Shown here piece after piece: positions 1-3,285 of a stretch of DNA of 22,697 bases. The notes below the pieces were generated by a model, which saw only the letters and a program-made list of their open reading frames with translations, did not search any database and was not told where the DNA came from. How positions within the stretch are numbered: position 1 is the stretch's first letter; each line of letters starts with the position of its first letter. The DNA lies in IMG/VR virus record IMGVR_UViG_3300046516_000452, positions 1 through 22,697 of that record; one strand, written 5' to 3'. The position numbers and the translations under genes were made by a program. This stretch comes from a virus.

Positions 1-285
1 GACTGCTGGCGCGCAATCGACGGATGCAAAGCCGACCCGTGGCACCAAGGCGCAAACGATCGTGGCACCCGATTCGACGGCCTGGAGTTGATCTTCCGAG
101 ACGTCGCGCACGTCGAAAAATTCGTCGGCTACCTCGACCCATCGAGAGCCCCGGTGGTCGACCCGCGCAAGGGCATCGCACCGGCCGCGCCAGCGTCGTC
201 GTTTGCCGAAGCGACGGCGGCGCGCAAAGGCATATCGCGAGACATCTTCGGCGAACATCTTGCCCGAAAGGCTAGCAACCAATGA
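1..285 (+). CDS. C-terminal part of a probable phage replication protein (5' end outside window)
   Basis: The reading frame is open from base 1, so the gene begins upstream of the window. It ends with a TGA that overlaps the ATG of the next gene (ATGA). The visible 94 residues contain a pattern rich in Asn-Asp-Arg-Gly followed by Leu-Ile-Phe-Arg (GANDRGTRF, then ELIFRD). I know similar patterns from the tails of phage winged-helix replication proteins that end near a replicated-origin-binding or helicase-recruiting segment. The gene directly precedes a DnaC-like loader, as such initiators commonly do. The N-terminal domain is not visible, so the role rests on a short tail and on context. The last 40 residues are low in hydrophobics and probably flexible. 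Confidence 0.5.
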   Translation, partial: DCWRAIDGCKADPWHQGANDRGTRFDGLELIFRDVAHVEKFVGYLDPSRAPVVDPRKGIAPAAPASSFAEATAARKGISRDIFGEHLARKASNQ

Positions 286-1046
286 GCGACCCGAAGCCCA
301 TCGGCCCGACGATCGCCCGAGTGCTGCAACGACATGCGGCGGAGATCGGATCGCCCGAATACGCACGCAGGTTGACCGAATACGAGCAAGCCCTCGACCG
401 CAAGCAACGCGAATCGCTCGCGCAGCTTTGCGACGAACGTGGCGTACCGGCCGAGCCCGGTTTGCGCGCAGTCACGTGCGACCCTGACCCGCACGTCACC
501 GCAGCGATGCGTCGGGTGCAAAGCTCGCTCGAGTGGCGCTCGAAGATGCCGGTGGTGATTGGAGCGCGTCAGCCCTTGGTGCTCGTGCTCGCTGGCACGC
601 CAGGCGGTGGCAAGTCCACAGCGCTCGCGTGGGCTGTGGCGAACCATTCGCTAAAATCTCGGTTCACGTTCGCGCGTGTCGTGGGCTCGACACCGCGCAA
701 CACGTTCCCGGCCAACGCGCAGGCCTGGAACGACTGGACCAGTTCCGATCTCGTGGCCATCGACGAACTCGGGCTCGAGGATTCGAAAGACGCATCCGAT
801 CGCATCGCTGCGTTGTTGTGCGAGCGGTACGACAACGGCCGTGCCACGCTGTGCGCCGGCAACCTCGACGCGCAAACGTTCCTCGCGCGCTACGGCGACA
901 ACACACGGTTGATCTCGCGAATCCGTGCGGGGCAGTTTCGATCGGGCGTGCCTGGCGGGTGCGCGTACTGGCACGAGCTGCCAGACGAAGACCTGCGCGA
1001 CCCAGCGCAGCGCGCGCAATTCACTCTGCCGGAGGCCGCGGAATGA
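282..1046 (+). CDS. DnaC/IstB-like AAA+ ATPase, probable helicase loader
   Basis: This 254-residue protein has a central P-loop ATPase domain. The Walker A motif is AGTPGGGKST (Lys about 111). The Walker B motif is LVAIDELG (Asp about 161, Glu about 162). A sensor-like Gly-Asn follows in LCAGNLD (about 192-197), and an Arg-rich RLISRIR segment near residue 210 could hold the arginine finger. The first 95 residues are charged and lack a recognised fold. Length and motif order fit DnaC-type loaders, which place the replicative helicase on DNA using ATP. It starts with ATG inside the stop of the upstream gene. An IstB-type transposition helper is the main alternative by fold, but no transposase is nearby and the neighbours are replication/recombination genes. 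Confidence 0.85.
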   Translation: MSDPKPIGPTIARVLQRHAAEIGSPEYARRLTEYEQALDRKQRESLAQLCDERGVPAEPGLRAVTCDPDPHVTAAMRRVQSSLEWRSKMPVVIGARQPLVLVLAGTPGGGKSTALAWAVANHSLKSRFTFARVVGSTPRNTFPANAQAWNDWTSSDLVAIDELGLEDSKDASDRIAALLCERYDNGRATLCAGNLDAQTFLARYGDNTRLISRIRAGQFRSGVPGGCAYWHELPDEDLRDPAQRAQFTLPEAAE

Positions 1047-1228
1047 ACATTTATTGCTGGCACTGCAAGGTCCCGTGGTGGCCCGATCACGAGTGCAATG
1101 GCAAGAATCCGGGCGCGCCTCCGCCGCTCGAATGTGCGTGGTGCAGCGCGATTGGCGCATGGTTGCAGGTCGACTCCGACGGCGATCCTGAGTGCGATGC
1201 GTGTGCGGAATTGGAGAGCGTGTCGTGA
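1043..1228 (+). CDS. Small Cys-rich, probable zinc-binding protein
   Basis: This 61-residue gene overlaps the loader gene by ATGA and the next gene by GTGA, so it is embedded in the same translational chain. Cysteine pairs lie at residues 5/8, 31/34 and 51/54, with a further Cys at 18 next to His16. That is enough for one or two zinc ribbons or knuckles. There is no signal peptide or membrane segment. I do not recognise a family; small zinc-ribbon proteins are common in phage replication blocks and often bind nucleic acid or other proteins. The start was chosen because it is the only ATG that begins the Cys-rich segment and makes the usual 4-base overlap. The longer frame upstream lies inside the loader gene. 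Confidence 0.75.
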   Translation: MNIYCWHCKVPWWPDHECNGKNPGAPPPLECAWCSAIGAWLQVDSDGDPECDACAELESVS

Positions 1229-1647
1229 TCGTCGCTGCCCGTCCTGCGCCGCCCACGACCATCGTGGTAACCATCCCGATCCGGGTTACCAGCGCCGCGA
1301 ACGCCCGCGAGCATTGGCGAGCAGCGCACAGGCGCAAGCAAGCGCAGCGCGTCGTGACGGCGGCGTTCCTGCGGCTCCAGGGGCCAAGCAAGCAATGGCT
1401 CGCAGACGCGTGGCGCACCCACGCATCGCGAATCGTCGTTGAGTTCACGCGCATCGCCCCGAGTCCGTTTGATGACGACAACATTCGCGGCGCGTTCAAA
1501 GCGTTTCGGGATGAAACTGCGGACTTCCTCGGGCTACCGAACGACCGGGACAAACGTGTGGTCTGGAAATACGACCAGCAACGCGGAAAACCTCGGGAAT
1601 ATGCGATGCGAATCACATTCAAAGCAGGCGCAAATGAAGCCGAATGA
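1225..1647 (+). CDS. RusA-like Holliday junction endonuclease
   Basis: This 140-residue protein resembles RusA-like nucleases of phages, metal-dependent enzymes that cut branched recombination or replication intermediates. An N-terminal beta strand segment (TIVVTIPIRV) is followed by an Arg/Lys-rich helix. The acidic core FDDDNIRGAFKAFRD (about residues 81-95) matches the Asp-rich metal site around the D-D-N motif, and GLPNDRDKRVVW continues the fold. The GTG start at 1225 overlaps the previous stop (GTGA) and gives a family-like length; earlier start codons lie inside the Cys-rich gene. The last 20 or so codons are more AT-rich than the rest and seem to have come with the HNH gene whose ATG lies 14 bases before this stop. 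The displaced original C-terminus is described under the pseudogene at 2155-2250. Confidence 0.75.
   Translation: MIVAARPAPPTTIVVTIPIRVTSAANAREHWRAAHRRKQAQRVVTAAFLRLQGPSKQWLADAWRTHASRIVVEFTRIAPSPFDDDNIRGAFKAFRDETADFLGLPNDRDKRVVWKYDQQRGKPREYAMRITFKAGANEAE
1558..1626 (+). repeat. Upstream copy of the duplicated RusA-like C-terminal coding segment
   Basis: This segment encodes VVWKYDQQRGKPREYAM and six more residues of the RusA-like protein. It aligns without gaps to 2170-2238. By hand count 14 of 23 residues and 43 of 69 bases match. The match follows the reading frame, as expected for two diverged homologous coding ends rather than a recent tandem duplication. Confidence 0.8.
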
Positions 1648-2164
1648 CGAGCGCGCGTTTTGGAGCAAAGTCGATCGGCGTCAGCCGGACGAGTGCTGGC
1701 CGTGGCGCGCTGGCCGATTCGAGTATGGGTATGGACATTTCAAGATGAATGGGAAGGACTGGCATTCCCATCGGCTAGCGTATGAACTTTCATCCGGTGA
1801 GATCCCTGCAGGAATTTTCGTCTGCCATCACTGCGACAATCCTCCGTGCTGCAATCCGAAACATCTGTTTCTCGGCACTCCGGAGGACAACGTTCGCGAC
1901 ATGATCGATAAGGGCCGTCGGCGTTTCGGGAGCTTCGAGACGTCGCGTCGGGTGATTAACGGTCGTGAGTCATGGAGCAAGCCCAATAGTCGCATGCCGC
2001 ACGGCGAGCGGCACTACAACGCCAGGCTTACGCTGGAGCAGGTGGCCGAATTGCGCGCCGCTTATGCGACCGGTGGCGTTCGGCAGGTCGACTTGGCGGC
2101 GCGATATGGAGTCGATCAAACGCACGTGAGTCGAATCGTGAGGGGGACTAAATGGGCTCGCTAG
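1634..2164 (+). CDS. HNH endonuclease with C-terminal helix-turn-helix
   Basis: This 176-residue protein has the HNH_3-type core of free-standing homing endonucleases. After a CWPW motif (21-24) and an HSHRLAYE strand-helix, the metal/zinc site reads CHHCDNPPCCNP with the final His in KHLFLGT (residues about 64-82). The last 45 residues (LTLEQVAELRAAY, then VDLAARYGVDQTHVSRI) form a helix-turn-helix that probably supplies target specificity. The enzyme is expected to nick or cut DNA and so spread its own gene. The ATG lies 14 bases inside the end of the RusA-like gene. A+T content is higher than in the neighbours: 96 of 180 bases are G or C at 1741-1920, against 85 of 120 at 2521-2640. This and the flanking duplication indicate a recent insertion. 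Confidence 0.9.
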   Translation: MKPNDERAFWSKVDRRQPDECWPWRAGRFEYGYGHFKMNGKDWHSHRLAYELSSGEIPAGIFVCHHCDNPPCCNPKHLFLGTPEDNVRDMIDKGRRRFGSFETSRRVINGRESWSKPNSRMPHGERHYNARLTLEQVAELRAAYATGGVRQVDLAARYGVDQTHVSRIVRGTKWAR

Positions 2165-2250
2165 CTCGCGTTCTTTGGGCGTACGAACAGCGGCGCGGCA
2201 AGCCGAAAGAGTACGCGATGACGATCCGACTCGAGGCGGCGCCGTGGTGA
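2155..2250 (+). pseudogene. Displaced 3' end of the ancestral RusA-like gene
   Basis: The frame ending with the TGA at 2248-2250 encodes VLWAYEQRRGKPKEYAM and continues to APW-stop. It aligns with the present RusA-like C-terminus at 1558-1626. Its TGA overlaps the GTG start of the next gene (GTGA), the same junction style used throughout the operon. This is what the original RusA-like gene would have had. It is GC-rich like the rest of the phage, unlike the copy attached to the HNH gene. An ATG at 2152 could allow a 32-residue peptide, overlapping the HNH stop, but I see no ribosome-binding site or reason for a function. I infer a remnant left behind when the HNH unit entered. Confidence 0.7.
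2170..2238 (+). repeat. Downstream copy of the duplicated RusA-like C-terminal coding segment
   Basis: Partner of the segment at 1558-1626, in the same orientation and separated from it by the HNH gene. Matches cluster at conserved codons for Trp, Tyr, Gln, Arg-Gly-Lys-Pro, Glu-Tyr-Ala-Met and Ile. Confidence 0.8.
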
Positions 2251-2909
2251 CCATGGTCGACCCATCGCCCTGCGACGGCTGCACCGCCGCGGCCGACTAC
2301 TCGCGCTCGATGCACGGCGCCCGCGTGCACTGCGACGAGTGCGGCGCGACCCTCACGGCGACGCGCAAGGCGACCAAGCGCGGGCGCAATCGTCGCGATG
2401 ACGAGAACGCGGTTCAATCGAAGATCTGGGAAATGGTGCGAGAGCTAGAGCTGCTCGCCCGCTGGCTGCCAACAATCGAAGGCGGCTCGAGCGAGTTCTC
2501 GCCCATCATCGGCGATGGCAACCGCGGCGGCGGCGCTCGAACGCAAGTCACCGACCGCACCGACTGGGTGAACGACCACCACGAACAGCTGTGGGCAGCG
2601 CAGCTCGTCCACCGTCGGCTCTTGGCGATCGGCGCCGAGCCCGCATATGCGTTGGCTCACCGCGTCATGTGGATCATCGTTCGGGAGTGCGGCAGCGCGC
2701 GACTGTGGGCCCTGCAGCGGTCCGACGGGCAGTTCATCCAGGCAACGCTCGTCGAACTCATCGGGCACGGCCTGGCGACCTCGCAGCAGCGCCGCGCGTG
2801 GCGACTGGCGGTCGAAGCTCGGGACACTGGGGTGGCTCGGGCTGGATCCGCGGAGATGGGCGATGGTCCGCTATGCGCCGCGACGGCCGTGTGGTTCGGC
2901 CTACTGTGA
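2247..2909 (+). CDS. Zinc-finger protein of unknown function
   Basis: This 220-residue protein is not one I recognise. Near its N-terminus it has a four-Cys arrangement, CDGC (residues 9-12) and HCDEC (28-32), consistent with a zinc ribbon. A basic linker (ATRKATKRGRNRR) follows. The remaining 160 residues look largely helical, with WEMVRELELLARWLP and a Trp/Arg-rich MWIIVRECGSARLW segment. No catalytic motif is apparent. The GTG at 2247 was chosen because it overlaps the upstream TGA; an ATG two codons later is an alternative. Position at the end of the replication block and before the packaging genes would suit a DNA-binding regulator or late activator, but that is inference from location and the zinc ribbon only. 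Confidence 0.75.
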   Translation: MTMVDPSPCDGCTAAADYSRSMHGARVHCDECGATLTATRKATKRGRNRRDDENAVQSKIWEMVRELELLARWLPTIEGGSSEFSPIIGDGNRGGGARTQVTDRTDWVNDHHEQLWAAQLVHRRLLAIGAEPAYALAHRVMWIIVRECGSARLWALQRSDGQFIQATLVELIGHGLATSQQRRAWRLAVEARDTGVARAGSAEMGDGPLCAATAVWFGLL

Positions 2910-2922
2910 CCGTGATACATAC

Positions 2923-3285
2923 ATGAGCTCTTTGGGAATCGTGCTGCCTGGGGTTGACGCCAGTCAGGCGCCAGGGTACCCACTTTTGCAGATGGCAGAG
3001 GTGCGTCCAACGGGCGCCAGACTCGCCGTCGACGACGTCGTGCAACGGACCGGGCTACCACGCCGGACCGTGCAACGGTGGTTCGCTCGATGGGCCGAAC
3101 GGGGCTGGCCACGAGTGTCTCGCGAGAAGATCTCGCCCGACGATTCGCGTTGGCGCATGTGGGTTGATGCCGACGATTACGCGTCTTGGAAGCGGGGCGA
3201 TGCGCCCCCTTTTGAGCTTTCCAAAGTTGCCTTTGTGCCGTGCCAAAAGACCCAGCAATACCGCGAATACCTGCAGAGCGCCTAG
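2923..3285 (+). CDS. Small helix-turn-helix DNA-binding protein
   Basis: This product of about 120 residues contains a MerR/excisionase-like helix-turn-helix, AVDDVVQRTGLPRRTVQRWF. It is followed by a Trp-rich wing region (WAERGWP, then SRWRMWVDADDY). It probably binds DNA as a regulator or as a packaging accessory, since it overlaps the small terminase gene by 46 bases. The start is uncertain. ATG 2923 has no clear ribosome-binding site, whereas ATG 2863 in the same frame has GGAG seven bases upstream but would overlap the previous gene by 47 bases. ATG 2994 would still keep the whole helix-turn-helix. The 3' part of the gene carries a terminator-like hairpin. Confidence 0.7.
   Translation: MSSLGIVLPGVDASQAPGYPLLQMAEVRPTGARLAVDDVVQRTGLPRRTVQRWFARWAERGWPRVSREKISPDDSRWRMWVDADDYASWKRGDAPPFELSKVAFVPCQKTQQYREYLQSA
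3194..3213 (+). terminator. Terminator-like hairpin before the small terminase gene
   Basis: GGGGCG (3194-3199) pairs perfectly with CGCCCC (3203-3208) around an ATG loop, followed by C and four T. The U-tract is short and the site lies in a coding sequence. It could be a weak attenuator between early and late genes, or it could be chance in GC-rich DNA. Confidence 0.25.

Follow-up and report, generated by a model that had tools for sequence, protein, structure and literature searches.

Our analysis of a viral sequence of 22,697 nucleotides, referred to here as the window, points to an HNH endonuclease gene that would have entered a RusA-like gene together with a replacement for the 3' end of that gene. 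The reading that we favor, with a probability of roughly three in four, is that the one-sided repair of a nuclease cut imported the RusA-like tail and the HNH gene of a donor, leaving the native tail behind as a remnant. A free-standing homing nuclease must enter a gene without killing it, a problem that introns and inteins meet by splicing; bringing along a spare gene end seems to be an alternative to splicing.

The record, a virus of 22.7 kb with Mu-like head genes (portal, F, I and gpT) and a baseplate J gene, contains an early operon on the plus strand in which a DnaC-like helicase loader (282..1046; phrog_50, E=2.1e-8) lies upstream of the RusA-like gene (1225-1647), the HNH gene (1634-2164), an orphan frame (2164-2250) and a gene of unknown function (2247-2909) that begins with GTG. 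The protein encoded at 1225-1647 found no match in Pfam and PHROG profile searches, and 17 of its relatives lacked a RusA match as well; because the sequence profiles give no match to the RusA family, we name it RusA-like only. Its predicted structure has the RusA fold, as the AlphaFold2 model reached a pLDDT of 86.7 and E. coli RusA (2h8c) was the top Foldseek match (probability 1.00, TM 0.51/0.62).

The HNH gene (1634..2164, +), whose start overlaps the stop of the RusA-like gene by 14 nt, is a putative homing endonuclease gene. Its product matched the Pfam family HNH_3 (PF13392) above the cut-off at E=1.1e-11, as well as PHROG endonuclease families at values down to E=3.4e-30. The combination of an HNH catalytic domain with a DNA-binding domain, as in free-standing HNH homing endonucleases, was found in this protein, with weak, below cut-off helix-turn-helix matches standing for the latter at its C-terminus. 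A sporadic distribution was also observed: none of the RusA-like relatives carries an HNH gene between the RusA-like gene and the next gene. An Rfam search of positions 1000-3000 revealed no group I intron.

The orphan frame, ARVLWAYEQRRGKPKEYAMTIRLEAAPW followed by its stop codon, repeats the C-terminus of the RusA-like protein (KRVVWKYDQQRGKPREYAMRITFKAG...), the two copies being 60% identical in both protein and DNA. Codons 110-134 of the RusA-like gene (1552-1626) occur again at 2164-2238, directly after the HNH stop, and 45 of the 75 nucleotides are identical, the likeness beginning immediately past the presumed break, at 2164, and ending at 2238. When the RusA-like protein was compared with the whole record it matched two places only, the gene itself and 2164-2238 (60% identity, E=1.4e-6). 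Thus, as in the fungal mitochondrial cases discussed below, a duplicated gene end is present on both sides of the endonuclease reading frame. The first-pass annotation had described this duplication as 14 of 23 identical residues at 1558-1626 and 2170-2238, with coordinates and frames that proved correct; the spans of the tails hold, but the remnant (2164..2250, +), which has no start codon and extends from the HNH stop to the GTGA junction, starts with the final base of the HNH stop (2164) and not at 2170. That junction was also correctly recognized, with the TGA at 2248-2250 and the GTG of the next gene at 2247-2249.

Several lines of evidence bear on which of the two tails is native. The GC3 was 0.77 in codons 1-109 of the RusA-like gene (1225..1551, +), the presumed resident part, which is phage-like in composition and has 53 viral relatives, and 0.79 in the downstream copy; in the HNH gene it was 0.66, and in the tail in use (1552..1647, +; stop codon at 1645-1647) it fell to 0.45, a value reached by only 0.26% of the 30-codon windows in 19 other genes. 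The AT-richness attributed to the upstream tail and the HNH gene by the first-pass annotation is therefore borne out in substance. A moderately significant change-point in GC3 along the RusA-like gene (p=0.01) had its best position at 1579, with 1552 within 0.7 log units, in a tail of about 30 codons; this composition suggests that a short tract of the gene was imported. Since the tail in use and the HNH gene overlap by 14 nt and neither has the composition of the phage, they seem to have travelled together.

Removal of the intervening DNA restores a seamless gene: the sequence joined at 1551|2164 aligned without gaps to a profile of the 56-sequence family and scored 137.3 bits, as compared with 139.8 for the present gene and 100.8 for the N-terminus alone, while dropping one residue at the join cost about 4 bits. 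In the HNH-free relatives the stop codon of the RusA-like gene overlaps the start of the next gene as NTGA (-3) in more than half of the loci, which is the commonest arrangement, and the GTGA at the end of the remnant would originally have been such an overlap with the RusA-like stop. In the predicted fold the C-terminal beta-hairpin comprises residues 112-120 and 127-134, and the break at residue 109/110 falls directly before it; the exchange would therefore have swapped one structural unit. Composition, operon junction, seamless join and position of the break in the predicted fold thus support the view that the downstream copy would be the displaced native tail and the tail in use the import, and the earlier proposal of an HNH gene with a replacement 3' end, the native end being left downstream, is the reading best sustained by the join, the operon overlap and the composition. 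Similarity to 59 relatives, compared between tail and N-terminus, did not differ between the two tails, which are too short, and the relatives too distant, for this comparison to discriminate. Neither a donor phage with an upstream-type RusA-like tail and this HNH gene nor a close HNH-free sister of the window phage was found in the sequences searched, and the history of this phage therefore rests on internal evidence and on the analogy with a helicase locus.

At that locus the same kind of exchange could be followed in a population. For the DEAD-type helicase of locus L280, 73 close relatives were retrieved from viral contigs; these provided 39 usable nuclease-bearing loci, defined by a nuclease gene directly before the helicase, and 31 nuclease-free loci. 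A truncated helicase start of the type MLRDYQQRTIDQLYAW was present upstream of the nuclease in 18 of the 39 nuclease-bearing loci, so that only about half of them retain a remnant, and in none of the 31 nuclease-free loci (Fisher p=3e-6, with loci that are not fully independent). Four nuclease genes occupy this site according to Pfam: two distinct HNH_3 genes, one Endonuclease_7 gene (L369) and one whose product contains NUMOD3 and NUMOD-like domains and is probably a GIY-YIG enzyme, judging from its GIY-YIG-like N-terminus. The remnants end in ...YAW and ...YA with the two HNH_3 genes, in ...YAWF with Endonuclease_7 and in ...DQL with the NUMOD3 protein, that is, within about 12 nt of each other. 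The genes upstream of the helicase loci belong to ten unrelated clusters.

Upstream of the remnant, continuity with nuclease-free relatives was evident at this locus: a stretch of 149 nt that extends through the start codon is 88% identical between L397 and the nuclease-free L394, while L354 and the nuclease-free L365 are 90% identical upstream and 81% across the start; in addition, the remnant peptide is found as an uninterrupted helicase start in the nuclease-free neighborhood of phage record MW202867. From this continuity and the intact start in MW202867 we infer that the displaced helicase copy is the resident, and that the nuclease-attached copy, of a different sequence type, is the import. 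The expectation of the first-pass annotation that intact relatives should match the displaced copy thus held at this analogous locus, where the import may have extended to the whole gene. In one of the loci (L363:1407-2201) the HNH gene continues the reading frame of the helicase 5' remnant that precedes it, making a fused remnant-HNH protein possible.

The occurrence of duplicated gene ends was surveyed in 240 HNH loci gathered from viral contigs by a protein-level comparison of the sequences flanking each nuclease gene on either side. For 191 non-identical loci with both flanks, a second copy was considered abutting when it lay no more than 45 nt from the HNH 3' end, and long low-complexity matches in GC-rich antisense frames were removed by filters on identity, stops and complexity. 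As the control we chose mismatched flank pairs drawn from these loci (n=1,519), because one based on open reading frames was noisy (10/535, mostly real paralogues, L064 and L050). A significant flank match was found in 12 of the 191 loci and an abutting partial gene copy in 8, as compared with 2 and 0, respectively, of the 1,519 mismatched pairs; leaving out the window and near-duplicates, the figures for abutting copies were 5/188 vs 0/1,519 (p=1.5e-5). The flanks of the window pair scored 88, whereas only 2 of the 1,519 mismatched pairs from other HNH loci reached 56. These frequencies are lower bounds, as the survey sees recent or well-preserved remnants only, and several of the loci are interrelated.

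Every case was inspected singly and showed a complete gene adjoining the nuclease and, on the far side, a truncated second copy of the gene end in question. The affected ends were the 5' end of a small Cys-rich protein gene (L085/L088), the 5' end of an amidase gene with the nuclease antisense (L095), the 5' end of the DEAD-type helicase (L280/L300) and 3' gene ends with the nuclease convergent with the gene (L156 and L186). Slightly weaker cases were the 3' gene ends of L155 and L157, and L201, where the HNH gene is separated from the remnant of the interrupted gene by a cytosine-methylase-like gene (RVLDLFCGAGGAAMGL..., L201:2257-2893, +), as though the latter were cargo. We excluded L112 and L138, whose matches were paralogous or non-abutting, and rejected L096 as not convincing. 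In L112, one open frame also encodes an extended array of decapeptide repeats (NSHAVLRE/NSHAELWG) that are nearly identical to each other (L112:2130-2620).

In the mechanism that we propose, the donor would have been a related phage whose HNH gene overlapped the 3' end of a RusA-like gene. The resident RusA-like gene in an ancestor of the window phage would still have lacked an HNH gene, and the nuclease would have cut it near codon 109/110. On its 5' side, the break would have matched the donor and been repaired by copying the donor RusA-like tail and the adjoining HNH gene; on the other side, donor and resident would have been unlike, and the ends would have been joined illegitimately at or near the cut. 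The outcome would be a presumably functional hybrid RusA-like gene of normal length, followed by the HNH gene and by the resident tail as a dead remnant starting at the cut, so that the inner end of the remnant would mark the cut to within the extent of any resection. The imported tail is unlike the native one and may for that reason also guard the hybrid against recutting. The first-pass annotation had envisaged the insertion of a discrete cassette; the arrival of the new tail with the HNH gene agrees with our data, but one-sided repair of a nuclease cut fits them better than a transposing cassette.

Other histories could lead to a duplicated tail. Such phages do undergo duplications of genes and segments, as in the whole-gene duplication of L064, and two adjacent RusA-like genes might have existed before an HNH gene inserted between them, the second copy then being reduced to its tail. 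We regard this as improbable, given that the remnant begins precisely where the HNH gene stops and precisely completes the N-terminus, that the helicase remnant was absent from all nuclease-free loci, and that a prior tandem duplication does not predict breaks in the same codon region with several types of nuclease. An equally low likelihood is given to the insertion of the HNH gene without a new tail, the present tail being patched on later by mosaic recombination: phage genes recombine freely and a single genome cannot tell the timing, but two events and an intermediate with a truncated RusA-like gene would be required, and the tail in use overlaps the HNH start and shares with that gene its departure from the composition of the phage.

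Much less credible still is the idea that the downstream segment is no remnant but has a function of its own, for example as a small peptide or as a site for translational coupling. In favor of this are the intact codon composition of the segment and its GTGA junction with the next gene; however, it offers no start codon before an internal ATG near the end of the frame, matches no Rfam family and has no counterpart as an isolated segment among the relatives.

A closely similar arrangement has been described in fungal mitochondria, where mORFs combine a foreign C-terminus, fused to a gene, with an endonuclease ORF that is followed by the native C-terminus, as in atp6 of Allomyces and atp6, atp9, cox2 and nad3 of Glomus (PMC3630166). 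The window would share with them the placement of the endonuclease near the 3' end of the gene, the fusion of a foreign C-terminus and the stranding of the native one, without splicing. In contrast to the mitochondrial LAGLIDADG or GIY-YIG enzymes of the mORFs, the phage cases comprise HNH genes together with Endo-VII-like and GIY-YIG-like genes at the helicase site, and phage loci swap 5' gene ends as well as 3' ends.

In phages, the accessible part of a review of T4-type systems reports one-sided events with illegitimate repair, demonstrated for the td intron, and free-standing HNH and GIY-YIG genes (Seg/Mob) beside the phage genes that they cut, as would be the case in the window, with co-conversion of flanking sequence and marker exclusion; it describes split genes (nrdA with mobE) but, in that part, no imported gene end with a remnant (PMC2988022). 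The HEG islands of ICP1 resemble the window in having nuclease genes at recombination boundaries, but these are boundaries of whole genes or regions, and no intragenic end replacement with a remnant is described in the accessible text (PMC10448857). F-CphI of cyanophage S-PM2 is, according to the portion available, a homing endonuclease with an Endo VII motif, as is L369 at the helicase site (PMC6083498). Split genes, exchange boundaries and co-conversion are described for phage homing nucleases in the accessible parts of four reports, which contain no intragenic end replacement with a remnant (PMC2988022, PMC10448857, PMC12724721, PMC13096335), and the open-licence literature searched yielded no phage precedent for a nuclease with duplicated or hybrid gene ends. 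As far as that literature shows, gene-end replacement is known from fungal mitochondria and is new in phages.

We consider it reasonably probable that swapping one end of the target gene serves several unrelated classes of phage homing nucleases (HNH, Endo VII and GIY-YIG) as a general, splicing-free route of entry, in which the inner end of the remnant records the cut site. The recurrence in phages, at both 3' and 5' gene ends and with several nuclease classes at a single helicase site, looks like a common way for nuclease genes to invade useful genes without destroying them. If so, the cut sites of many uncharacterized phage nucleases could be read from the genome sequence alone, providing testable predictions for genes annotated merely as HNH endonuclease, and the intragenic mosaicism of phage genes would be in part a by-product of selfish nucleases.

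With regard to the wider RusA-like family, the window gene (1225-1647) and those of loci L003-L065 share the motif LTRIAPRALDDDNLxGAxKAxRDxVAD. The family defined by this motif, whose window member gave no match to Pfam and PHROG models despite its predicted RusA fold, is a possible addition to annotation libraries. A search for closer RusA relatives in bacterial genomes of two phyla retrieved distant ones only, and no relatives of the gene following the remnant were found in viral contigs. None of the apparent duplicated tails among the RusA-like relatives was real: L064 contains a tandem duplication of a multi-gene segment including the whole RusA-like gene (L064:1000-4400), with copies that are now about 70% identical, and in L013-L018 the variability of the 3' ends showed no link to a nuclease. 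In a RusA-like locus without an HNH gene (L050:4324-4952), adjoining segments begin alike (RRRSDDVSN) and then diverge. Finally, an HNH gene lies directly upstream of a RusA-like gene and overlaps it in L038 (2501-2992), where a duplicated end was not detected; this is possibly an independent association of a nuclease with the RusA-like gene family.
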